Source: Clavaria fumosa (taxonomy: Eukaryota > Basidiomycota > Agaricomycetes > Agaricales > Clavariaceae). Taken from it: a DNA stretch of 64,000 nt. The stretch is from assembly GCA_951802425.1 (NCBI GenBank), contig OX637803.1:2976001-3040000 (forward strand), in the 5' to 3' direction. Below, piece after piece: positions 6,010-30,617 of the stretch. The notes below the pieces were generated by a model. The model was not told the origin of the DNA, searched no databases, and saw nothing but the letters and a program-made list of their open reading frames with translations. Numbering within the stretch: position 1 is the first letter of the stretch; each line of letters begins with the position of its first letter. The position numbers and the translations under genes are program-made.

Positions 6010-7833
6010 TCAGTGTGTTTCCCGCCAGAAGGCTGACGTAAATCTCAGATCACAATCAGACACAATCGATCCTGGCAACCCATGTAGTCTCACTACATGG
6101 GTTAGGAAGAGCCAGGCTAGCTCTGCTGCCATTACCGAAATGGTAACTGGTACTAGGTGTACCAGAGAAGTGAGGTGGCAGATCACCACCCAGAGGTAGT
6201 CTGCCTCTTTTGACATAGGAAATGGACCTACGAAGTCCATTCCTATTGATTCCCAGGGCCGCCTGGGGATCAGAAGGGTGTGTAGAAGCCCTTGCAGCTT
6301 CTGCGGCGAAGTCTTGCTCGTCTGGCACATGCCGCACAATGTACAAAACATATCGATGTCTTTAGACACAGATGGCCACCAGTAGTACCAACAGACATAA
6401 TCCGCCGTTATCTGCGACCCCATGTGTCCTAGGACTGCATGGGCTTCCTGGATTATCGTTCCCGGGATGCTTTTCCCTTCATGAAGGGTACGGGGTACGC
6501 AGAGCACCTCATCTCCCTTTTTATTCTCGGAGAAGATCAGGTCCTCCCTGATCTTAAAACCAGTGTAGTTTTCCAGTTTTTCCACTATTATTTTGAACAG
6601 GCGATCCTGTTCATAGCCATCACAGATGCTTTGCAGCATCCTGCTATCTCCCCCTTCCATGCGGGGCCTTAAGGGCACGAGCGTCTCGTCCCTCACATCC
6701 CCGTCCGCTTGGGGCACAGGCAGCGGTTGCTCCTGCTCGGTCTCCTGGTCCGAGGCAGGTGCGCGTACTCGTAGTGCATGCACCTCCTCCAGGCGTCCGC
6801 GGGGCAACTTGTCCCCTTCAGGGTCAAGGCAAATGTCTGCCTTCACGTACTCGTGATCTGGATGAATCTCATCCGTCGCATCACTCATATGGTAACACGA
6901 AAGGCCATCCACAACCTTGTTGCTCTTGCCTTTAATGTAAGTGATGGAGTAGTCAAACCTCTCCATATGTTCCATCCACCTGGCCTGCCGGCCAGACAAG
7001 CGCGTTTGGTTCTTAAAGAACCCCAGCGCTTCGTGGTCTGTAACCACGTTGATTCGTCTACCAAGGAGTTTATCCTCCCATTTCTGTAGTGATTCAACAA
7101 TCGCTAAGGCCTCCCAGTCCCAAGTTTTATAACTAAACTGGGCTGGGCTAAACCTTTTAGACATAAACCCCACTGGACGGCAGGTTTCCCATGTCTTTCC
7201 CTGGCCATACATGGCCCCTACGCCTGACACCGATGTGTCGCACACGAGCCAGATTGGCTCCTGTACTGCCGCGTCTACTGGGCATAATATTGGCGTTTTA
7301 CACACCAATGCCTTAATCATCTCCATGCACTTGTCATGGAGTGGTCTCCAGTGAAATGTTTGCATTTCACTACACAGACTAGCCAAAGGGCCAGTGTAAG
7401 CAGACAGATTGGGCATGAACTGTCCAATGTACTGTACTAATCTGAGGAACCTCTGCACCTCGTTAACGCTTGTCAGTGTTTTCCAATTATGGATTTTATC
7501 CATTTTATCCACTGTGACATGGATTCCTCGGGCATCTATAATATGCCCTAAGCAATCTATGCTCTTCGTGTATAATGAGCACTTCTTCTTGCTCAAGAAA
7601 AGGCTCGCACCTTTGAGGGTCTCAAAGACCATTTTTAAGTGACGCTCATGGTCCTCCAAGGTCTTGGAGAAGACAAATACATCGTCTAAGTACACATGCA
7701 TGTACTTTCCCAACTGATGACGGAATATGTGCGTCATCAGGTGCTGGAAGGTAGCAGGGGCATTACAATCCCCTATCTGCATCACCTGTGAGAACATGGT
7801 GCCCAATACAGTCGCGAACACCGTCTTCCACAT
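6010..7833 (-). pseudogene. Gypsy pol fragment: RT palm, RNase H, integrase zinc and catalytic core
   Basis: In order, the 607-codon frame shows the reverse transcriptase active site YLDDVFVFS, the GHIIDARGI connection, and an RNase H domain with DTSVSGVGA, DWEALAIVES and VTDHEALGFF. A Ty3-type integrase zinc finger follows (HAVLGHMG...CTLCGMC), then core motifs MDFVGPFP and VSDCDLRFTS with two of the three catalytic acids. It is one open frame but is cut off from the N-terminal RT and from the integrase C-terminus by frameshifts. Confidence 0.9.
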
Positions 7834-7844
7834 GTCCTCAGGCT

Positions 7845-8333
7845 CTACGCGTCCAATAGGTCAATCTTTGACCTATATGCAGCTCTAGCCACGTCCTGTC
7901 TGATCTGATCCTGATCAGGCAATGGGGTAATATCCCATACTGTGTTCGCATTCCATTTCCGACAGTCTACGACTGCCTGTTGCAGCGGGTTCTGGCTGCT
8001 TTTTGGTATGCATAACATAGGGGCTGCTTGTGATGCCACTCCTGCTTCCCACCAACCATTAGTAATATAACGGTTCACTTTCTCAAGGAATTGTTCCTTG
8101 AATGCCTCAGCACACTGAGGCAGGTAATAATTATAGACTCGCTTTTCATCTATTAAGGGTATGTGGTGGTTCACCGCCCGAAACGGTGGCGGTCTGGGGG
8201 GAACCCCCCCAAAGAGCTCAGCGTACTGGTTAAACCAGTACTCATGCCTGCCTTCGAGGTAGGCATCGTCTATCTTTACAGAGGCATTAGCCTCTCCCCC
8301 CTTCCAGGGCTCACCTGCATCCCAGGGGCCCAA
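7845..8333 (-). pseudogene. Gypsy pol fragment: N-terminal reverse transcriptase
   Basis: This frame contains RAVNHHIPLIDEKRVYNYYL followed by a fingers region ending CIPKSSQNPLQQAVVDCRK and the DITPLPDQDQIRQDVARA segment before the KIDLLDA strand. These are typical motifs just before the YxDD palm. A frameshift near 7840 separates it from the rest of RT. Confidence 0.85.
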
Positions 8334-8468
8334 GTGTAGTCAGCTCTTTCGAGCTTCCTTCCTTGGCACATTCTTAGCCGATATATGGACATGTAACGCT
8401 TCTGTCTCCTCACTGGGCAACATCGCCTGAAGGGTTTTCCCCTTCCCTTCGCCAATCCAGATTGCACG

Positions 8469-9455
8469 TCAGTGCACATCCAGTATCACACAGCGGTCAT
8501 ACATGAATGCCATTCCAACTATGATGTCATAGTGGTCGATGTTCGCTATATCAAAATACTGGTCCTCCACCAGTATTCCTCCCAAATCTACTGCTATGCG
8601 GCATCCGCGTGTGATCGTCGATCGGCTGCTGATACAGCTGAGTTGGATAGGAACTGAGTTATCCAGTTGGAAGGTCGGTACCTTTGTCACCTGGGCAAAG
8701 TCTGGGCTCATCAGGTCCGGGGTACTTCCCAAATCGAAAAGCGTGTACGCTTTTACACCGTTCACGGTGATGTAGGCTGCGAGGCATTGCCTTGCCTCCT
8801 TTGTCACTACTGGGTGCGATCCTGTTCGCTCTTTCCAGATGTGCGCCCGAAACGGCCTGTCGTCAACATGGCCGATGCATACTTCTGTCGTGTAGAGGAC
8901 TTCATCCTCTCCCAACTCCCGGATTCCAGCGACCTGGTCGCTTTCCACCTCCTCCTCGAGCTCGTCCGAATCGTACTGGTCCCTGCGACCAGCGTAGTCA
9001 TCTTCCGTGACTTCCTCCGGTAGGGCTTCACCCTCTGGCTCCTCGCTTTCAACCGCAGGTGTTTCCTGCGGTTCCTCGGGCTCTGTCTCACCCGGATCCT
9101 CTTGTAAGGCATAGTTCCTTACATTTCCCCTAAAAGCCTCTGGCTTTCGCTGTGACTGAGGGCACACATTCGCATAGTGCCCTACTTTCCCGCACACATA
9201 GCATGTTAGAGGAGCTTTCTGCTCCTCTCCGCCTCGTACCCCAATCTTGGGCACCACTTTAGGCGGTTCTAGCCAGGGTTTGCTCCCTCTGGCTTGGGCG
9301 CGCTCATCCTGTGCTTGGTCAATCTGCAGGGGAACCGTGTCCCCTGGTCTGCGGTCTGTGTGCAGCCGATACGGCCACAATCTCACAAACCTCTGCCCCA
9401 CAGGTACTCTACCTGTGGGTGGGTTTACTCTGGGACCTGCTTGGCCATAACTCAT
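8469..9455 (-). pseudogene. Gypsy gag-pro fragment: zinc knuckle and aspartic protease
   Basis: A CCHC zinc knuckle (CYVCGKVGHYANVC) is followed by an acidic linker and a retropepsin-like domain. The flap region and the hydrophobic strand IIVGMAFM are recognisable, but the active-site triplet reads FDLGST where the family has D(S/T)G, so the protease is probably inactive. Gag N-terminal domains are absent: the open frame ends at the junction with AT-rich repeats at about 9443-9455. Confidence 0.8.
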
Positions 9456-11967: not shown

Positions 11968-13087
11968 TCAAACGAAAATCTGTTCAAGTCTTTGTAGGGA
12001 CAAGCTGAAAAATCAAGATCTCCGGAACGTACCGTGTCCTCGAACTCTTCCTCTTCCCCATCTTCATCAAGTGCATCCCATGGTTCCTGAGTATCTATCC
12101 ACCTAAACAAATAGAACGCATCAGTTCTTCAGCATAAGCACGTGCATCCTGTGGTGGACGTTTGGACAATGGATTGAAACCGCTCACAGATCGTCGCCCT
12201 CAGGTTCGGGAACAGGACTCTCACGGCGCAAGAGACCTCGTCTCCGAATTTTTTTGAGTGTGAATAATGGCGTGTAGCTGTATAGCCCTTCCTGATCACA
12301 GGCTTCTCGAAATAACCCGGTCGTATTTCGAGACCGCCAGGCCATTCCCGTTGCGCCGCTAGCATTGAAGGTTGAGACATCGGGCACAGGTACCGATCCC
12401 ACCAGCTCCACGTCAATGACCTCCTTGTCTGTAGAACATGTTGGTCAATCAGGAGAGTAGATAGACTGTCATGTGTGCAGAGACCCTCACTTCCGCTCGA
12501 TAGGTACAAAACGTAGGCAGGGCAAGATACCACTTCTGTGACGAGCGACTTGTTCTGTAAATCAGGGACATCGACCAATAGCTTTAGAAGCACATTTCGA
12601 AGGATATGTGAGGTGCGTGGTCGAGCCATAATCAGTAGAGCGCCGCGCTTGGCACCAAATTCCCATCGAGTGTTGATCGACGCTTCAGCAACTCCTGGAA
12701 TATTCCTATTGGCCAAATGGTAAGCAGACATCGAGTTCTAGACACGCTTGTGTGATTTGCTCACAGTTTGTGGTCGAGGGTAAGTTCGTGACGCTTTACA
12801 CTCGACGATGACACAATGAAACTATTTTCTGGGATTGTTTGATGTGGACGATGCGCCGACGTCAAGTTGGCAATGTCTGCATCATCATAGATGTTCCCGT
12901 CGCTCTCAAATCGGCCAGTTTGCTTGTCGACCGTACCGTAGTCTCCCACCTGTGAATTATAATGCGGAGTTCCACCAGACAGTCAACGGAATATGCTAAC
13001 CTTGATGGGGGTTGGAGGGTCCCAATTTGCCCACTTTGATGAGACGGCATGAATCAATTCAATGAATTTGCGAGAAGAATTTGTCAT
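11968..13087 (-). CDS. Gasdermin-like protein (putative pore-forming cell-death effector), six exons
   Basis: I join exons 13087-13001, 12949-12765, 12705-12491, 12428-12188, 12102-12033 and a short last exon ending near 11968. All junctions are GT..AG, in phase, with introns of 51-85 nt, giving about 269 residues. The start MTNSSRKF is chosen because it alone is in frame with IKVGDYG. Motifs are VGDYGTVDKQTGRF and GNIYDD (about 30-54), a beta-rich middle with KRGALLIM, and KSLVTEVVSCPAY (about 143-155), resembling the 'VxTEV' strand of gasdermin N domains. Then come VPVPDV, LFREACD and TLKKI, a basic stretch (RRRGLLRR, about 228-235), and a Pro/Glu/Asp-rich tail of about 35 residues. Size, strand pattern and short tail fit fungal gasdermins (RCD-1/HET-Q1 type), whose N domain forms membrane pores after proteolysis. 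It is divergently paired with a CHAT-protease gene. The gene model is strong; the family call is from memory of motifs. The C-terminal few residues are uncertain because of the last intron. Confidence 0.65.
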
Positions 13088-13325
13088 GATATGATGGGAA
13101 GTCTTGGGCTGAGAGGTTGCTCGCAGAGATGGGAGGAGAGTTTTTGTAATCGATGGACTAGAGAGATTGAAGTCATAGTACGTTGTTACGCGTCACGCTT
13201 TGCCTCGTGCATCCAGCGCCTCACCATTGACACTGCAAACATATTCCCCTCCTTTGCTTCTCCCATACGTTGCCGTTGCCGTTCCCGCACGCCACCAAGT
13301 CGCTCACCAAAATACCCCAATCAGC
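13088..13325. promoter_or_regulatory. Shared divergent promoter of gasdermin-like and TPR-CHAT genes
   Basis: Only 238 bp separate the minus-strand ATG at 13087 from the plus-strand ATG at 13326, so both genes must draw on this interval for initiation. It is C/T-rich toward the TPR-CHAT side (13230-13320). I see no clear TATA box. A shared interval suggests co-expression, but that is inference. Confidence 0.55.
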
Positions 13326-16300
13326 ATGGTGAGTCCAGGGACGTCTGAGAACATACAACTAGACTGACTGCTACTCGGTCAGGGCGGGATGGAGGATACC
13401 ATCGAGACAGCCTGTAAAGAGAAAGAGAAATTGGATAAAATGGTTATGTGCTACCGTCAAACACTCGCCCGTCTTCACGCGTGCAGTCCAAAACGTGCAG
13501 GGGCCCTTATTGACCTCGGTAATGCTATTCACGAACGCTTTGATCAGTTTGGCGAGATACAGGATCTGGAGGAGACAATCACATATTACCGTCAAGCACT
13601 CGCCCTTTGTCCTCTGTGGAATCCTAATCACACCACCGCTCTCAACAACCTCGCCACTGCCGTTTTTACACGCTTTAATCAGCTGGGCAAGATGGAGGAT
13701 CTAGAGGAGGCGATCACGTACCACCGTCAAGCCCTTGTCCTCCGTCCTCCTGGCCACCCCAATCACTCCAGCTCTCTCAACAACCTCGCTGCTGCCATTT
13801 CCAGACGCTTTGATCAGCTGGGCAAGATGGGGGATCTAGAGGAGGCGATCACGTACCACCGTCAAGCCCTTGTCCTCTTTTCTCCTGGCCACCTCAATCG
13901 CTCCAGCTCTCTCAACAACCTCGCCACCGCCATTTCCACACGCTTTGATCAACTGGGCAAAATGGAGGATCTAGAGGATGCGATCACGTACCACCGTCAA
14001 GCCCTTGTCCTCCGTCCTCCTGGCCACCCCAATCGCCCCAGCTCTCTCCTTAATCTCGCCAGGGCCGTTTCCACACGCTTTAATCAGCTGGGCAATATGC
14101 AGGATCTAGAGGAGGCGATCACGTACCACCGTCAAGCCCTTGTCCTCCTTCCTCCTGGCCACCCCAATCGCTCCGGCTTTCTCAACAGCCTCGCCAACGC
14201 CATTTCCACACGCTTTAATCAGCTGGGCCAGATGGAGGATCTAGAAGAGGCGATTACGTACCACCGTCAAGTCCTTGTCCTCCATCCTCCTGGCCACCCC
14301 AATCGCTCCGGCTCTCTCAACAGCCTCGCCAACGCCATTTTCACACACTTTGGTCAGCTGGGCAAGATGGAGGATCTAGACGAGGCAATCACGTACCACC
14401 GGGAAGCCCTTGTCCTCCATCCTCCTGGCCACCCCAATCGCTCCGGCTCTCTCAACAACCTCGCCAACGCCATTTCCACACGCTTTGATCAGCTGGGCAA
14501 TATGGAGGATCTAGAGGAGGCGATTACGTACCTCCGTCAAGCCCTTGTCCTCTGTCCTCCTGGCCACCTCAATCACTTAAGCTCTCTCAACAACCTTGCC
14601 AATGCTGTTACCACACGCTTTGATCAGCTGGGCAGGATGGAGGATCTAGAGGAGGCGATTACATACCACCGTCAAGCCCTTGTCCTCTTTCCTCCTGGCC
14701 ACCCCAATCGCTCCACCTCTCTCAACAACCTCGCCTCCGCTGTTTCCACACGCTTTAATCAGCTGGGCAATATGGAGGATCTAGAGCAGGCGATCACGTA
14801 CTTTCGTCAAGCCCTTGTCTTCCATCCTCCTGGTCACCCCGATCACTCTAGCTCTCTCCACAACCTCGCTGCTGCCATTTCCATACGCTTTAATCAGCTG
14901 GGCAAGATGGAGGATCTAGAGGAGGCGATCACGTACCACCGTCAAGCCCTTGTCCTCCGTCCTCCTGGCCAGCCCATTCGCTCCAGCTCACTCAACAACC
15001 TCGCCAATGCCGTTTTCACACGCTTTAATCAGCTGGGCAAGATGGAGGATCTAGAGGAGGCGATCACGTACCACCGTCAAGCCCTTGTCCTCTGTCCTCC
15101 TGGCCACCCCAATCACTCCAGCTCTCTCAACAACCTCGCTGCTGCCATTTCCAGACGCTTTGATCAGCTGGGCAAGATGGGGGATCTAGAGGAGGCGATC
15201 ACGTACCACCGTCAAGCCCTTGACCTCTGTCCTCCTGGCCACCCCAATCACTCCAGCTCTCTCAACAACCTCGCTGCTGCCATTTCCATACGCTTTAATC
15301 AGCTGGGCAAGATGGAGGATCTAGAGCAGGCGATCACGTACTTTCGTCAAGCCCTTGTCCTCTGTCCTCCTGGTCACCCCGATCACTCTAGCTCTCTCGA
15401 CAACCTCGCTGCTGCCATTTCCATACGCTTTGATCAGCTGGGCAAGATGGAGGATCTAGCGGAGGCGATCATGTACCACCGTCAAGCCCTTGTCCTCTGT
15501 CCTCCTGGCCACCCCAATCGCTCCAGCTCACTCAACAACCTCGCCAATGCCGTTTCCACACGCTTTGATCAGCTGGGCAAGATGGAGGATCTAGAGGAGG
15601 TGATCATGTACCACCGTCAAGCCCTTGTCCTCCGTCCTCCTGGCCACCCCAATCACTCTAGCTCTCTCAACAACCTCGCCAATGCCGTTTTCACACGCTT
15701 TAATCAGCTCGGCAAGATGGAGGATCTAGAGGAGGCGATCACATACCACCATCAAGCCCTTGTTCTCTTTCCTCCTGGCCACCCCAGTCGCTCCAGCTCT
15801 CTCAACAACCTCGCCAATGCCGTTTTCACACGCTTTAATCAGCTGGGCAAGATGGAGGATCTAGAGAAGGCGATCACGTACCACCGTCAAGCCCTTATCC
15901 TCCGTCCTCCTGGCCACCCCGATCGCTCCAGCTCTCTCCACAACCTCGCCACTGCCATTTCCAGACGCTTTGATCAGCTGGGCAGGATGGAGGATCTAGA
16001 GGAGGTGATCATGTACCACCGTCAAGCCCTTGTCCTCTGTCCTCCTGGCCACCCTGATCGCTCCGGCTCTCTCAACAACCTCGCCGCTGCCATTTCCGAA
16101 TGCTTTAATCAGCTGGGCAAGACGGAGGATCTAGAGGAGGCAATCACATACTACCGTCAAGCCCTTATCCTCCGTCCTCCTGGCCACCCTGGCCACTCTA
16201 GCTCTCTCAACAACCTCGCCAATGCCGTTTCCATACGCTTTAATCAGCTGGGCAAGATGGAGGATCTAGAGGAGGCGATCACGTACCACCGTCAAGCCCT

Positions 16301-18182
16301 TGTCCTCTTTCCTCCTGGCCACCCCAATCACTCCAGCTCTCTCAACAACCTCGCTGATGCCATTTCCACACGCTTCGATCAGCTGGGCAAGATGGAGGAT
16401 CTAGAGGAGGCAGTCAAGCATCTAACGGATGCTGAGGCTGTTTTGCCTGTAGCACATCCTGTTCACATCACTATTCGGAGAGCTCTTGCTCAGTGCACTC
16501 TCACCCTACACGATCGTATTTCCGGATCGGATGATCTCCTTTCCGTGTCGTTCAGTCTCTTTGAGAGGGCAGCTAGCCACTTGCCCGCCGGCTCAAATGC
16601 TCAGTTCTCCACCGCTCTGTTATGGGCATCTGCTGCGCGGCGTTACTGGCACGAGTCCACCATACGTGCCTACTCCAAGACGCTGAGCCTTCTCGACCGT
16701 TGTCTGATTGCAAGCCCCACTATAGACCTGCAGCAAAAATTCCTTGCTAATAATCGTGTGGTCCCCAAGTCACTTGCCTCGGATGCCGCTTCTGCTGCAA
16801 TTGAAGCGGGGAATCTGGAAGCGGCGGTCGAGTTGCTCGAACAGGGAAGGGCCATACTCTGGTCGAGGATGCAAGGCTATAGACATCGACTCGATCAGCT
16901 CCGCGAAGCCGATAAAGAGTTGGCTGACCGTCTTGATATGCTGAGTGGTCAACTTGAATGTCTTGCGATGTCATCCGAGCCTGAGTTGGTGTTGTCACCA
17001 ACAGGGCCCGAATCACGGGTTCTTTTCGAGGCAAAAATGCAAAGGCACCGCATACTTTCAGAAGAATGGGCTGAAGTACTGAGAAAGATTCGGAAGGTAG
17101 ACGGTTTTACAAACTTCTTACAAGCTGTGCCATTCGCTACCCTCCAAACCGCTGCAAACGAGGGCCCTGTTATCATTGTCAACATTAGCAAGTATCGATC
17201 TGACGCCATAATACTCCAGGATACCCGTCCTCCTATCCTTGTCCCTCTTCCTGATGCCCTGCCAAAGGAAATCGCCCGCCTTTCTTCGGAACTTACATAT
17301 GCCCAAACCTTGGATGAAATCAGTTCCCCGAAAAGAATTCATCCAATCTTGCGACGGCTATGGAATGTCGTCGTTGAGCCCGTGGCAGATTGGCTCGTTA
17401 CGTTAGGGGTGCAGGAGATGAGTCGAATCTGGTGGTGCCCTACCTCTGAGTTATGCACTCTACCCCTCCACGCTGCAGGTCCATACAGACGCAACGAAAA
17501 GAACCTTCCTGACATCTACGTATCATCTTATACACTTACTCTTTCTGCACTGATCCGGGCTAGATCTGGTGCAACGTGTGGGTCTGTCGTTCCCAAGCTA
17601 CTCGCAATTGGTCAACCCGGCCAAACTCTCCCAATGGTCGAGGAGGAGATTTCTCATATTCGGGAACTTGGAAGTTTTGTTTATGTCCTTAACGGGGCAG
17701 ATGCAAATCGAGACGCGGTGATCCATGATCTCCAACAACATTCCTGGGTTCATTTCGCTTGCCATGGCCACCTGGACAATCGAGACCATCAACCATTTCA
17801 TTCGTCATTTGAACTTCATGACAATAGCCGCCTCACTCTCCTCGACTTGATACAGGCTCGGTTACCAAATGCAGAGTTTGCATTTTTATCTGCTTGTCAT
17901 AGTGCGGCTGGAGACGGCAAAGGCACTCCTGACGAGGTTATTCATCTTGCAGCAGCTCTGCAGTTCTGTGGCTTTCGCAGTGTAGTTGGGACGTTGTGGG
18001 CCATGGAGGATATAGATGGACGAGATGTTGCGAAGGACTTCTACAGTTACATGTTCCGTGAACCTGGAAACATGGCGAATTTCAGGGACTCGGCAAAGGC
18101 TCTCAATCTGGCTACTCGGGCGATGAGGAGCAGACGTATAACAATAGACCGTTGGATTAAATTTGTTCATATTGGCGCATGA
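13326..18182 (+). CDS. TPR-CHAT protein, caspase-like protease domain with 22 homogeneous TPR units
   Basis: A continuous frame from ATG 13389 encodes 1597 residues. An ATG at 13326 followed by GTGAGT..CAG (intron 13329-13382) joins in frame as a one-codon first exon, so either start is possible. Residues about 12-1001 are 22 TPR-like units of exactly 45 residues, plus a degenerate 23rd. A helical linker follows (about 1050-1290), then a CHAT domain to the C-terminus. The CHAT domain has RIWWCPT...LPLHAAG, the catalytic His in HFACHGH (His1459, numbered from 13389) and the catalytic Cys in LSACHSA (Cys1503), then GFRSVVGTLWAM. CHAT domains are caspase/separase-fold cysteine proteases. TPR-CHAT proteins are frequent in Agaricomycetes; bacterial ones cleave gasdermins or CRISPR-linked substrates. 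There is no NB-ARC or signal peptide. The neighbour suggests it activates the gasdermin-like protein, which is inference. Confidence 0.9.
13422..16391 (+). repeat. 22 x 135-bp in-frame TPR-coding tandem array
   Basis: The anchor CTAGAGGAGGCGATCACG (or close variants) recurs exactly every 135 bp, for example at 13701, 13836, 13971 and 16401. The first unit (13422) and second unit (13557) are divergent but in the same register. A 23rd unit (16392-16526) is degenerate. Internal units are near identical at DNA level, yet a few codons vary strongly, above all codon 18 of the unit, which is always NNT: Cys 7, Arg 6, Phe 4, His 3, Leu 1 in units 2-22. Positions 11, 24-25, 35 and 39 also vary. Confidence 0.92.
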
Positions 18183-19503: not shown

Positions 19504-21961
19504 TCAAAGGCTTAACGGCGGCACGCCCGACATGGCACCGCCCACAAAAAAGCTCGTCCGCTGTACGGCGCCTAAGCTACGTGTCTTCATATTCGGATGG
19601 TGCTGGTGCACATGTAGCTGTTGCTGATGTTGCGACGGCGATGCATGGTTTGTGTGCTTCTGACGGTGTTGACGATGCGGAGGAACTACCGCACCCAAGT
19701 TCTTCCTCCTGAGCTTCTTCTCTCGCCGGCTCTCTCGCCTCGTTTTGGGTGACTCTTTCGTCGTCGGCATCGACTCACTAACACCTCCCTCCTCCGCCAC
19801 CACGACCACAGATGCACTCCCCGATTCCACGCTCGTCGGCGTTCGGTCACCGTCATGAGGCAGCAGCACAGGCGACTCCAAAAAGCGTCGCATCGCGCTC
19901 CGCTCATCATTTTTGGATAACATAGGCCTGGAGGATGGGATCGTCGATGTCACCACTTCGCTCTCCTCCGCACTCCGCCACCCGGTCGTCGACGCGCCGG
20001 CAAGCATCACATGCTCAAGCGGATATACATCCCGTCTTGATGTACCAGGCCACACAGCAACAACGCCAGTGGTGGAAGTAGCAGTCGAACAAGAAGCAGA
20101 GGCAGTGGCCGATGATGACGATGGCCCAGCAGCAGCGGCCGCGGCCGCAGCAATGTCACGCATCTGTCGGAACGCTCCTACCGGGATCACGTCCCACCGG
20201 TTCAAACCCTCCAACAAACGTTTCGTCATATCCCTCGTTGCCGCTACGCTGTTCTTGTTCTTTTTGGTCTCGTTACCAGGGTCCTTGCTGTTGTCGCCAC
20301 ATGTAGCAGTCTCGCTGAGTATTGCAATCTCCATTTCAGACGAAGGGTCTGAATCCTGGAAAAAAGAGGCCTCTAATACGTCGTCCAGTCCCATAGCGGA
20401 TGCCATTGCAGGTTCCACCTCTTCAAAATCAATAGGAGACATACACATCGAAATGTCGTCCCGCCCCGTAGTTTCGCGAGATGATGACTGACTCGACCCA
20501 CGTAAAGGCAGCGAAGAGGGCGGTCGTGAAAATGGGCGGCCACGGCTGCTCCACTTACGAAGGAAAAGGCAATGGATAAATGGTAAATCGAAAGAGAAGG
20601 AAGTGACGTACGCCGCTGAAGCTGCTCATGCGCGACCGCATCCTCCGCTTACATCGAGGGTACGGCGACGGTATCTCATTCGATGACCCATCAATAATCG
20701 CGCTGCGTTGACTGCCATGCTCACTCTCCCCCACGCGCTTAAACTCGCCCATCAACGGCACCCCGGTCTTGCTCTTCGCGGGACTCCGACCACCATAGTC
20801 AGCTTCCTCTTCCTCCGCTTCCACTGCGTTCTTGTCAGCGACTTTACCAACGCTGCTATTGCCCTCGCCACCACAGGAACAGATATCTCCACCCAGGAGC
20901 GCTCGCCCGTTTACCGGCGCCGAGTCCGCGCGACGGCGAGGGCGCTGTTGACGGTGATAACGATCGAGTCGGCGATGGTACGGACAATCCCGATGATGGT
21001 GGCGGCGCAGCCACGCCGGACGTGCATCGTTCTTCAAATTCGCATCAGGACCCAGGCCCATCGTCGAAAGCGGGTTGATCGCAGAGACGCTCGCAGGTAG
21101 CTTGACAAGACGCATCGCGCGCGGAGTGGGCAATCCATCCGGGCCGACAAGTTCCTCTTCCGTCGTCTCGCCCGCATCGTAGTCGCCGCCCGCCCCCTCA
21201 TCCTCATCGTCGCCCTCTTCGTCGTCATTATGCTCACAGTCCGCATCACATTCGGAGGGCGGGTGCATAACATGGTCTGCGTCGCTCTCCTGACTCATTA
21301 CCACAGATGCACTCGATGACGACTCAAACAACGCACGGCCAGCGTCCGCTTCAAATCCCATGTCCATGTCCAAGAACCCCCGGGTGGCTCTGAGCCCGCT
21401 CGTGAACATGAGCTGCCCGTCCCATCCTTGGGTGACTTCAAAATCAGTGTGGGCGTTGGCGCGCGCGGTAGGGGTACCTTCAGTACCCGAGGTCGCATGC
21501 CCATCTACCACCGTTGCTTTCCCGACATCAGTATCGGCGTCCTCATCCTCCTCGCTCGAGGACAAGTTTGCAAAGAAGAGGTCGGCGTCAAAACTCGACT
21601 CGTCGTCGGACCAACCATCTGTAGCGGCAGTGGGAGCCGTCGCCGTCGCCGAGTATGGCACACCAGGAACAGACCGACCGTCGGTATCCTCCACGCCATC
21701 GTCCCCGTCGTCATCTTCCTCTTCTCCCTCCTCATCTTCAGTCGCATAACCATCGTCCATCTCGACGCTTTTCTCTCGAGAGTGGATGATCCATTGAGTG
21801 TGTAGTGGGTGAAGGTGTTGTCGGTGGATGGGGTCATCGTCGCCCAGAGGCTCTCGCCGGACTCGCGTTTTGTCGCGGAGATGGACAGCGAACGTCGACC
21901 GGGGGAGGCAGGTGCACTCAAAGTCGCATGTGGGACAAATGACCATGTCTTCGCCGTCCAT
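19504..21961 (-). CDS. Acidic, low-complexity protein of unknown function, two exons
   Basis: Exon 1 (21961-20612) ends at GGC|GTACGT and exon 2 begins after GAGTCAG at 20487. The join is in frame and gives about 777 residues. The N-terminus has a CPTCDFECTC cluster, then long Asp/Glu-rich tracts (about 75-290) mixed with Ser/Thr. A conserved-looking segment, AMRLVKLPASVSAINPLSTM, lies near 300, with a His/Arg-rich patch after it. In exon 2 come LLEGLNRWDVIPVGAFRQMR, a poly-Ala run coded by GCN repeats, and a basic segment (RRESRREKKLRRK) that could be a nuclear signal. I do not recognise the family. Composition suggests a nuclear regulatory or scaffold protein, which is inference. It is divergent from the RING gene, with about 256 bp between the two ATGs. 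Confidence 0.7.
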
Positions 21962-28299: not shown

Positions 28300-30617
28300 A
28301 TGGCCATCCCTGTGCCGTCTACCCCTCCCTCTCACAAACCCAACCCTCACCCGTACGCTATCAAGACCACCTCTACCGCCCTCCTGTCTCGTTCCAATTC
28401 CTCCTCTCACACTTCGCACCCCACCAGTCATTACTACGTTCCTCCTTCGCCAACTCCTGCAAGTCCTGCCAAACTCAAGCATGAGACACCAGGACACCGG
28501 TACAGCCGGTCGTTGAATAATGAATGGCCAACCCCGCTCCCAACACCCCCCAGGTCCGCAAGCTCGGACGAATCAGCGCACTCACATGCCCACGCGCTCG
28601 CCTCCTTTGATTTCCCCGTAACTCGTCTCAAGCGTTCGGATAGCATTCCCGTGCGCACCAGGACGTCGCCATCTGCTGCGCCGACCATTGAAGATCTGCC
28701 TTCCAATCCCAGACAATGGACCTCTGCTCATCTCTCTGCATACCTTGCCAACGCTCTTCGTGTGCGCTCCGGTTCTGGGTCTCTTACGCTGCCGGCCGAT
28801 ATCGCCGTGTTCTTGAGGCAGAACAGGATGACGGGGGAGACCTTCCTCAAGATCACGGAGGACGATCTCGAGGAGTTCGTTTCCCTTCAATTTTCTTCGA
28901 TCAACTAACCCATAAGACCATTTTTCTCTCCGCTAGATTGGGCATCAACCCCTTATGGCGCTTGGCCTTCCTTACAGCCTCGCGCAACCTTCGCCGGAAC
29001 ATTCTGCGCGGGCGCATCTGGAGTATCGATACGGACTCTCCTCCCGATTCGTCTTCTCCGTCTCCTTCACCATCTCCTTCCTCGTGCCATTCGCCAGCTC
29101 GTTCCTCGCGCCCGCGCGACTCTCTCACCCGCATGCTTGCTCATACCGGCGGGCGCGTGCGCAACGTGGTTGCATCGTTCGAAAAGAGCAGGGGAACTGG
29201 CCCCTACGAGAACAAAGTCGTGTCGCAGCAGCAGCAACCACAGGATGCTACGCGCAGGCGGAGCGTGAGCGCACAGCTCCCCACTAGCGTACGGACGCAC
29301 AGTCGGGGCCCAAGCGAGAGCCTGAGCGAAGGACACGCACCACTCGCCCTTGATCGCGATGAAGACGAGGATAGCTACAGTAGCGACGATAATGAGGACG
29401 AAAATTGCTATGCGCACGCGACATGTCGACCGGCGGCTCGCGCAGATGCGCAGGCCGCGCGTTTGCGCAACGGGGAACAAGAGCAGCAGGCCGTGATGTA
29501 CAGCGTCGTAGGCGAGGAACCTACGATAGAAGCGCTGCTAGTCTCCTCCTCACCGACCGATGGGCGTTTGTGGGGCGCACGCGCGTGGGAGCTGGATGCG
29601 GGCCCCAACGTGACCGTGAGGCATCTTTCGGAGCGGGACGACGAGCATGGGAGAGCGCGTCTCATGAACTCTCCTCCTGCATGGGGTGAGGCGGCCCAGC
29701 CATGTTTGGTTGTTGGGGGCTTGGTTGCGAGGTCCTCGAAGCGTGACGGTGGAGAAGTGGACGACGTCTTCGGGCTGGTCCGTGAACAACCGAATGCAAG
29801 GCAGCAGGGTGCTGCTGAGGGTGTTGAGGGTCCGCATGGTCTTGGCGAGCCAACGAGGAAGCGGGGAGGGGAAACGCTCGTTACTGCTTCTCTTTCCACG
29901 GACGCATCCGAGTCTCTGGCTGAGCTCCGCAACCTCGGGGTGACTGGCCATGAGAACGCATCGGTCGTTACCGCACCGGACGCTATTATGGCTTGCCCCA
30001 AAGATACCGCGGAAGAACTCGTCGCGGGTGCACTGGTTTCCTCACCAAGCCTATTCGGTGCTGCTCTGGCAGGAGACTCAGACGTTACGGAAGCGCACGC
30101 CCCCGTCTCAGGTCCCGCGATCTCTGAACGAGGGTCAGGGGAGAATATAAACGGAGACCTGTCCGAGTTTCGAGAAGGTCGTCTCGAGGCGGAACTGCGG
30201 GACTCCCGTGTACGTCTGGACGCGCTCGAGAAGCGGCTTGCGGCGCTAGGGAGGTTGTTGGCGATGACGATGGTGTCGCCAGATGCGAGAGAAGCTGGGG
30301 AAAGCCGTTGTGAGAGCCAGCGCGAGATCATGCCGGGAACAGTCCGATTGGGTCCCGACGATGATGGAGACGTGGGGGTGGGGTCGCCTTTTGTTGGCGT
30401 CAATTATGCCACTCGTGTTCTCTCTCTCTCCGTTGGGAAAGTTGTCGCTGCTTATGACCGCACGACCCAAGAGGAGAATTCTAGACGTGTTCCTTCCCCA
30501 GTGTACCCCGAGCGGCACTATGGATTTTCGACCTACGTCTTGCTTGTTGGCATTGGTATCTCTTCTGTTGTGCTGACAACTATCCTCCAGAAGGTCGCGA
30601 AACGGTTCAAGATCTGA
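28300..30617 (+). CDS. SAM-domain protein with C-terminal membrane anchor
   Basis: The start is the ATG at 28300 (MAIPVPSTPP). The first ~135 residues are Ser/Pro-rich. A sterile-alpha-motif-like domain follows, QWTSAHLSAYLANALRVRSG...TGETFLKITEDDLEE, and resumes after the intron as LGINPLWRLAFLTASR. A long acidic/Ser-rich region comes next, then a probable coiled coil (LEAELRDSRVRLDALEKRLA) and a single hydrophobic segment, TYVLLVGIGISSVVLTTIL, followed by KVAKRFKI at the C-terminus. This is a tail-anchor layout. The obvious acceptor at 28936 breaks the frame. Only the 38-nt intron 28879-28916 keeps it, so the splice or sequence needs checking. SAM domains mediate protein or RNA binding. The role is unknown. 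Confidence 0.75.

Follow-up and report, generated by a model that had tools for sequence, protein, structure and literature searches.

A divergent gene pair in Clavaria fumosa as a candidate cell-death module: a TPR-CHAT protease and a small protein with a predicted arginine cleavage site

A 64,000-nucleotide stretch of the Clavaria fumosa genome (hereafter the window; C10:2976001-3040000 of a 48.8-Mb genome in 17 contigs, with positions lacking a contig prefix counted from the first letter of the window) carries a small minus-strand gene that stands head to head with a large open reading frame (ORF) on the plus strand, which encodes an array of tetratricopeptide repeats (TPRs) fused to a CHAT protease domain. 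On balance, this locus is probably a two-gene regulated cell-death module, in which the TPR-CHAT sensor frees a probable pore former of the gasdermin type. The reading builds on the divergent gene pair itself, an intact catalytic dyad in the protease, a conserved arginine followed by a conserved tail in the small protein, a split of charge between its body and that tail, the anatomy of the repeats and the protease linkage of a paralogue, all of which are directly observed. By analogy, the pair would work like a fungal gasdermin pair, and most likely comprises a protease-released cell-death executor and its TPR-CHAT sensor.

In the proposed course of events, the TPR array, with its 21 closely similar units, would act as the sensor, its groove binding a ligand that might be a non-self or a danger signal. 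Ligand binding would then switch on the fused CHAT protease, which would cut the product of the neighbouring gene after Arg231. The cut would remove an acidic tail of 38-41 residues, whose Trp, Pro-Trp and LDEDG elements are proposed to have held the basic body inactive. The freed basic body, probably a gasdermin-type pore former, would oligomerise on acidic membrane lipids, and the hyphal compartment would be killed.

A conserved arginine ahead of an acidic tail

Re-derivation from the sequence bore out what an earlier note on this DNA had described: a six-exon gene for a 269-residue protein opposite a 1597-residue TPR-CHAT ORF. The small, gasdermin-like (executor) gene (11968..13087, minus strand), modelled from its splice sites and its relatives, has exons at 13087-13001, 12949-12765, 12705-12491, 12428-12188, 12102-12033 and 11979-11968, separated by GT..AG introns. 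Its last exon, 11979-11968, yields a 269-residue product ending in DTIFV, which suits the ends of the relatives (EDTYFD in P0001) better than an alternative last exon from 12004 that gives 272 residues; the searches reported here used this 272-residue variant, which differs from the 269-residue model in the last exon only. All three motifs to which the note had drawn attention, VGDYG, GNIYDD and LVTEV, are found in the protein. The 238 bp that it had placed between the two starts comes close, at 237 bp, if the large gene is read from an ATG at 13325, and becomes 301 bp if it is read from 13389. The former start, linked to the main ORF by a possible GT..AG intron, would form a one-codon first exon. 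The shared intergenic region between the two start codons (13088..13324, assigned to neither strand) is presumed to be a bidirectional promoter.

Because its closest relatives are 60% identical across 98% of its length, the small gene is more than a chance reading frame. The protein search drew 132 proteins at E<=10 from 869 candidates, with E at or below 2.3e-34 for every one of the 120 listed. An organism name accompanies 66 of these 120 (counted by hand), with Mycena, Lentinula, Suillus, Ramaria, Jaapia and Tulasnella among the genera, all of which we take to be Agaricomycetes. A single listed relative, P0056, bears a precomputed Pfam domain, PF01185, presumably hydrophobin, and is probably a fused gene model. 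Thirty pattern matches among IMG/VR viral contigs included no relative. The family has one length and one layout, as laid out in an alignment of 96 relatives (A1), where the conserved body reads RKYIDLI..SSKWANWDPP..IKVGDYG.ID..TG.F..GNIY, RGALLVM, K.LVTE...CPAY.LYLS and YTPL, and the conserved acidic tail reads W.D...PW.PLDEDGEE. Two further alignments, A2 and A4, hold 32 rows, including the window protein and both of its paralogues, and 9 divergent rows, respectively. Neither Pfam nor NCBIfam matches the small protein at E<=1, a phmmer search of the PDB with it gave nothing beyond one unrelated protein, from a radial spoke (E 0.16), and Pfam applied to the 96 family members gave 12 families, each matching one member, with a best E of 0.049. 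The small protein represents a family of Agaricomycetes that annotation has not recognised and that is new here. PADLOC returned two single-member matches in the family, PDC-M11B (3e-4) and REase_II (9e-3), and acidic-tail composition may account for the former, which concerns one A1 member.

At the junction of basic body and acidic tail stands Arg231 (codon 12223..12225, minus strand, placed by hand), the predicted protease cleavage site. The tail that follows it, delimited by its charge and by its motif in the relatives, spans 38-41 residues with W244, P250 W251 and LDEDG, and its coding region (11968..12222, minus strand) has two introns inside. In the 272-residue model, the net charge is +5 up to Arg231 and -16 beyond it. 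The relatives repeat this split, with a median charge of +4 in the body and -13 in the tail, and the tail is negative in 87 of the 88 measurable rows, the boundary being drawn 14 residues past the PL motif and 8 of the 96 rows being dropped. The tail motif (W, PW, LDEDG) recurs in 90 of the 96. Within a variable linker, the Arg231 column holds Arg in 88 of the 96 relatives and the next column G, D or E in 90; in A2, both paralogues included, Arg occupies the column in 31 of 32 rows. An Arg-[DEGQN] pair lies no more than 35 residues before the PW motif in 87 of the 90 PW-bearing relatives, and in these 87 the last such Arg is followed by a median of 40 residues (range 21-101).

A cut after Arg231 is predicted because a conserved Arg sits at the charge switch and because the tail has a length like that of the fragment released from HET-Q1. 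The short charged tail of the earlier note is of the right size, and it comes with a conserved candidate residue for cleavage. Separase/CHAT-type proteases and metacaspases alike favour Arg at P1, the residue just before the cut. Conceivably, W244 and W251 could act like the two packed Phe in the short tail that keeps a Bradyrhizobium gasdermin inactive (PMC10989679). So sharp a prediction of the cleavage site is new here. Since the family occurs in genera from several orders of Agaricomycetes and its predicted cleavage residue is conserved, the prediction is testable by one point mutation.

A caspase-fold protease fused to closely similar repeats

The protease gene (13325..18182, plus strand) has its main ORF at 13389-18182, with 1597 residues and no internal stop. 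Pfam finds many TPR matches in the protein and, at residues 1319-1596 (17343..18176, plus strand), a CHAT domain, a caspase-fold protease domain (PF12770, 120.6 bits against a cut-off of 24). The His/Cys dyad that the earlier note had called intact is so: His1459 (17763..17765, plus strand) is kept in 120 and Cys1503 (17895..17897, plus strand) in 119 of 121 aligned CHAT ends, these being the window protein and 120 listed of 2280 relatives at E<=0.001. Among the Pfam matches listed for the large protein (25 of 38), none is NB-ARC or NACHT.

Ahead of the protease domain, 21 TPR-like repeats follow one another with an exact period of 45 residues (residues 57-1001; 13557..16391, plus strand), and a degenerate 22nd comes after them. 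Over 42 codons in all 22 units, pairwise DNA identity has a mean of 0.84 and reaches 0.99 in the best pair, as is typical of repeats that were copied recently. Across repeats 2-21 (n=20), nonsynonymous differences amount to 0.107 per site overall versus 0.122 for synonymous ones. The ten codons that rank highest for nonsynonymous change give 0.285 versus 0.131 synonymous, the former figure being inflated by the choice of these codons on their own value, and the remainder give 0.053 versus 0.120. The groove positions 2, 5, 9, 12 and 13 of what we take to be the canonical TPR helix-A numbering (here 27, 30, 34, 37 and 38) all fall within the 12 most variable of the 45 codons (P=6.5e-4, with a rank-12 cut chosen post hoc and repeats that are not independent of one another); the variable codons outside the groove list are 18, 24, 41, 36, 25, 45 and 11. 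Such variability along the groove fits, and does not prove, a recognition surface under diversifying selection.

A TPR-only sensor lacking NB-ARC had been put forward in the earlier note as a distinct architecture, a claim that is rejected here because of published precedent. Reviews already report that the proteases linked to fungal gasdermins are often fused directly to WD40, TPR or ANK repeats, with NLRs forming a small subset, and that, in a two-gene cluster of P. anserina, the gasdermin is activated by a CHAT protease that bears TPRs (both PMC12881547; similarly PMC10989679).

Published gasdermin pairs and linked proteases in the genome

The P. anserina cluster (via PMC12881547, PMC10989679 and PMC10197012) is like the present locus in that a small-protein gene lies beside the gene of a TPR-bearing CHAT protease, which there activates the small protein. 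The present pair differs in belonging to an Agaricomycete, in having no sequence link to gasdermins and in its 21 near-alike 45-residue repeats, a comparison for which the Podospora protease is taken as the reviews describe it. Linkage of this kind is common: about 80% of the gasdermin genes of fungi have a protease gene in their vicinity (PMC12881547, PMC10197012, PMC10989679), some 63% being near S8 and 19% near CHAT genes according to one review, which also states that Ascomycota are clearly richer in gasdermins than other fungi (PMC10197012), and CHAT accounts for about 17% of linked proteases in another source (PMC10989679). In the window, the protease gene lies less than 10 kb from the executor gene, a spacing expected of a protease-gasdermin (Q2L) two-gene cluster.

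In the literature found, those fungal gasdermin systems that have been characterised, HET-Q1 and RCD-1, are ascomycete. HET-Q1 has 278 residues, of which HET-Q2 is thought to remove 40 (PMC10989679); the present protein is likewise a putative executor of about 270-280 residues, with 38-41 beyond the predicted cut. Unlike HET-Q2, an S8 serine protease with a likely P1 of Phe238, the present enzyme is a CHAT cysteine protease with a predicted P1 of Arg, and whereas het-Q1 and het-Q2 occupy a single locus as idiomorphs, the two genes here are both present, side by side. RCD-1 of Neurospora crassa is a pore-forming fungal death protein of similar size (244-257 residues), but it has no inhibitory domain and is not controlled by cleavage, in contrast to the conserved acidic tail and the protease neighbour of the present family. 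Bacterial gasdermins (bGSDMs) also combine a short C-terminal inhibitory peptide with a neighbouring protease gene; no sequence similarity to them was found, and the present gene is eukaryotic and spliced, with an Arg junction. The literature found, from whose search the founding fungal gasdermin papers lay apart, makes no mention in its excerpts of the present Agaricomycete family or of its C14-linked member, described below. Allorecognition is only one possible role of the module. By far the most fungal gasdermins have no part in it (PMC12881547), one allele of the Aspergillus fumigatus heterokaryon incompatibility gene hetB encodes a CHAT protein (PMC11138114), and the somatic incompatibility of basidiomycetes is described as poorly understood (PMC8229728).

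Two further members of the small-protein family occur in the genome, at C2:464091-464956 and C12:2274204-2274901 (best E 2.4e-5 and 3.7e-4, respectively; splice sites picked by hand), and tblastn with the relatives finds them at E values down to 4e-19 and 9e-20. An intron of equal phase just before an (N/D)IPG motif, placed by hand, is common to the small gene of the window and the C12 gene, and a search with the C12 paralogue yielded two metagenome relatives. An ORF with a Vps39 domain adjoins the C12 member. Of six Peptidase_C14 matches in the genome, all above the cut-off, three lie near the C2 member, at C2:459766-460098 (4.0 kb away), 462896-463207 (0.9 kb) and 469510-469812 (4.6 kb). ORFs near it contain YAGHGS in one case and DSCHSGG in three, presumably the His and Cys motifs of the metacaspase type, and of four ORFs scanned with Pfam, one carries C14. 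Two of the three family members have caspase-fold proteases as neighbours, and these belong to two different families; with 15 CHAT and C14 matches in 48.8 Mb, about 0.01 adjacencies within 5.5 kb of the three genes would be expected by chance, by hand arithmetic on match counts that are lower bounds. S8 proteases give nine matches in the genome, and no family member has one nearby. The metacaspase-linked paralogue is new here, and a narrow literature search gave no report of a fungal metacaspase-gasdermin gene link. Along some 75 kb of the C2 contig (C2:391500-470000), one executor-like gene lies together with two CHAT matches (C2:395931, C2:440483) and three C14 matches, which may make up a cluster resembling a defence island.

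A bolder reading is offered tentatively, as possible rather than probable. The small proteins could form an ancient Agaricomycete family of their own, one of protease-released death executors under the interchangeable control of two Arg-directed proteases of clan CD, with a TPR-CHAT sensor at one locus and metacaspase-type C14 enzymes at the paralogous one. If true, fungi would have a metacaspase-to-gasdermin axis that directly parallels the caspase-gasdermin signalling of animals, and the family would be a natural substrate of metacaspases in cell death, predicted to be cut after a single conserved Arg. The paralogue beside the metacaspase-type genes could reveal what fungal metacaspases cut to cause death.

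Gasdermin identity and rival explanations

That the small protein is a gasdermin is plausible and unproven. In size it falls within the range of fungal gasdermins (about 240-280 residues with a short C-terminal segment), having 269-272 residues with 38-41 after R231, whose removal is predicted. By eye, the order of its elements, an N-terminal helix, the VGDYG/GNIY strands, the VTEV strand and a Gly-rich hairpin, resembles that of gasdermin N domains, although a control-tested alignment gave no statistical support. The charge of the body (+5) is compatible with membrane binding and says no more than that, and a text search of the literature gave no paper joining GDYG with gasdermin.

Several results weigh against the proposed module or its gasdermin component. 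Profile searches, which the earlier note had suggested for both proteins, upheld CHAT at the score given above and gave the small protein no profile link to any solved gasdermin. At E<=10 in the PDB, profiles of A1, A2 and A4 drew 0, 2 and 1 rows, respectively, all unrelated; with hhalign, the N domains of four mammalian gasdermins gave 0.2-0.4%; in our own profile-profile aligner, the real pairing with mammalian gasdermins scored no higher than reversed, rotated and block-shuffled controls; and PF04598, the Pfam gasdermin family, sought exon by exon, has no match in the genome. The C12 protein is without the PW tail, and its gene has no CHAT, C14 or S8 match nearby, nor did Pfam find a protease among the 16 ORFs scanned there of the 66 listed; it comes nearer to RCD-1 in this respect, and is perhaps an RCD-1-like, protease-free layout. 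The genome has nine or more CHAT matches, of which only that of the window adjoins a family member. Across species, 13 have both proteins among the matches listed, and only in Jaapia argillacea is the contig of equal size (1,898,765) for both, a comparison that, with 120 of 2280 CHAT relatives listed, says little either way on linkage.

The missing sequence link to gasdermins is a weak test, because accepted gasdermins miss each other too. In phmmer searches, human GSDMD, GSDMA and GSDME find other mammalian gasdermins, and GSDME also finds 8jyv/8jyw (Trichoplax); none of the three lists RCD-1, whose chains may be absent from the PDB copy used, or the bacterial gasdermins. The power of such tests is low.

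The same logic of protease and executor could be served by a small protein of another membrane-active or enzymatic fold, a non-gasdermin effector that the CHAT protease would free by cutting off the acidic tail. It would agree with the lack of gasdermin similarity in every sequence and profile test, and the conserved Arg junction and tail are independent of fold. Moreover, TPR-CHAT proteases can cut other partners: Csx30 is the substrate of Csx29, the TPR-CHAT protease of type III-E CRISPR systems, and the present CHAT domain has a weak NCBIfam match to Csx29 (residues 1442-1551, 28.5 bits, far below the cut-off of 300). The two proteins share a TPR plus CHAT architecture, but the present locus has no CRISPR context and the sensing is unrelated. 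Against such an effector, the length of the small protein, the length of its tail and its pairing with a protease closely copy the published fungal gasdermins, and the order of elements resembles gasdermin N domains by eye, if not in the statistical test; such an effector appears somewhat unlikely, if still a serious contender. Compatible with any of these readings, the conserved Arg and the acidic tail might be structural or regulatory, for example in protein binding, in place of a cleavage site and an inhibitor. The Trp, PW251 and LDEDG elements are conserved as strongly as the body, which would suit a docking motif; the Arg, however, stands out in a poorly conserved linker where the charge switches, and the tail equals the HET-Q1 fragment in length, so that this view is judged unlikely.

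The two genes might also be neighbours by chance, the TPR-CHAT protein then belonging to a large, expanded set of sensors that act on other substrates, and the role of the small gene in the cell being unrelated. The abundance of CHAT proteins, in this genome and among the related proteins found, together with the single adjacency among the genomic matches and the apparently protease-free C12 paralogue, would fit such a coincidence. It is nevertheless quite improbable, since two of three family members lie beside caspase-fold proteases where next to no such adjacency is expected, the divergent starts are only 237-301 bp apart and the Arg junction, being conserved, has the look of a processing site. 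The module of a TPR-CHAT sensor and a protease-released, probably gasdermin-type executor remains the preferred reading.

Around the gene pair, three window ORFs are without a Pfam match at E<=0.01, at 28716-30617 (plus strand, 633 residues), 19504-20448 (minus strand, 314 residues) and 20555-21961 (minus strand, 468 residues). On the other side, 2.5 kb from the pair, retrotransposon pieces occupy 6010-9455 on the minus strand, with one ORF for reverse transcriptase, RNase H and integrase and another for a zinc knuckle and an aspartyl protease. About 39 kb before the window, a CHAT match at C10:2936621-2937271 contains an in-frame stop and is possibly a decaying copy.

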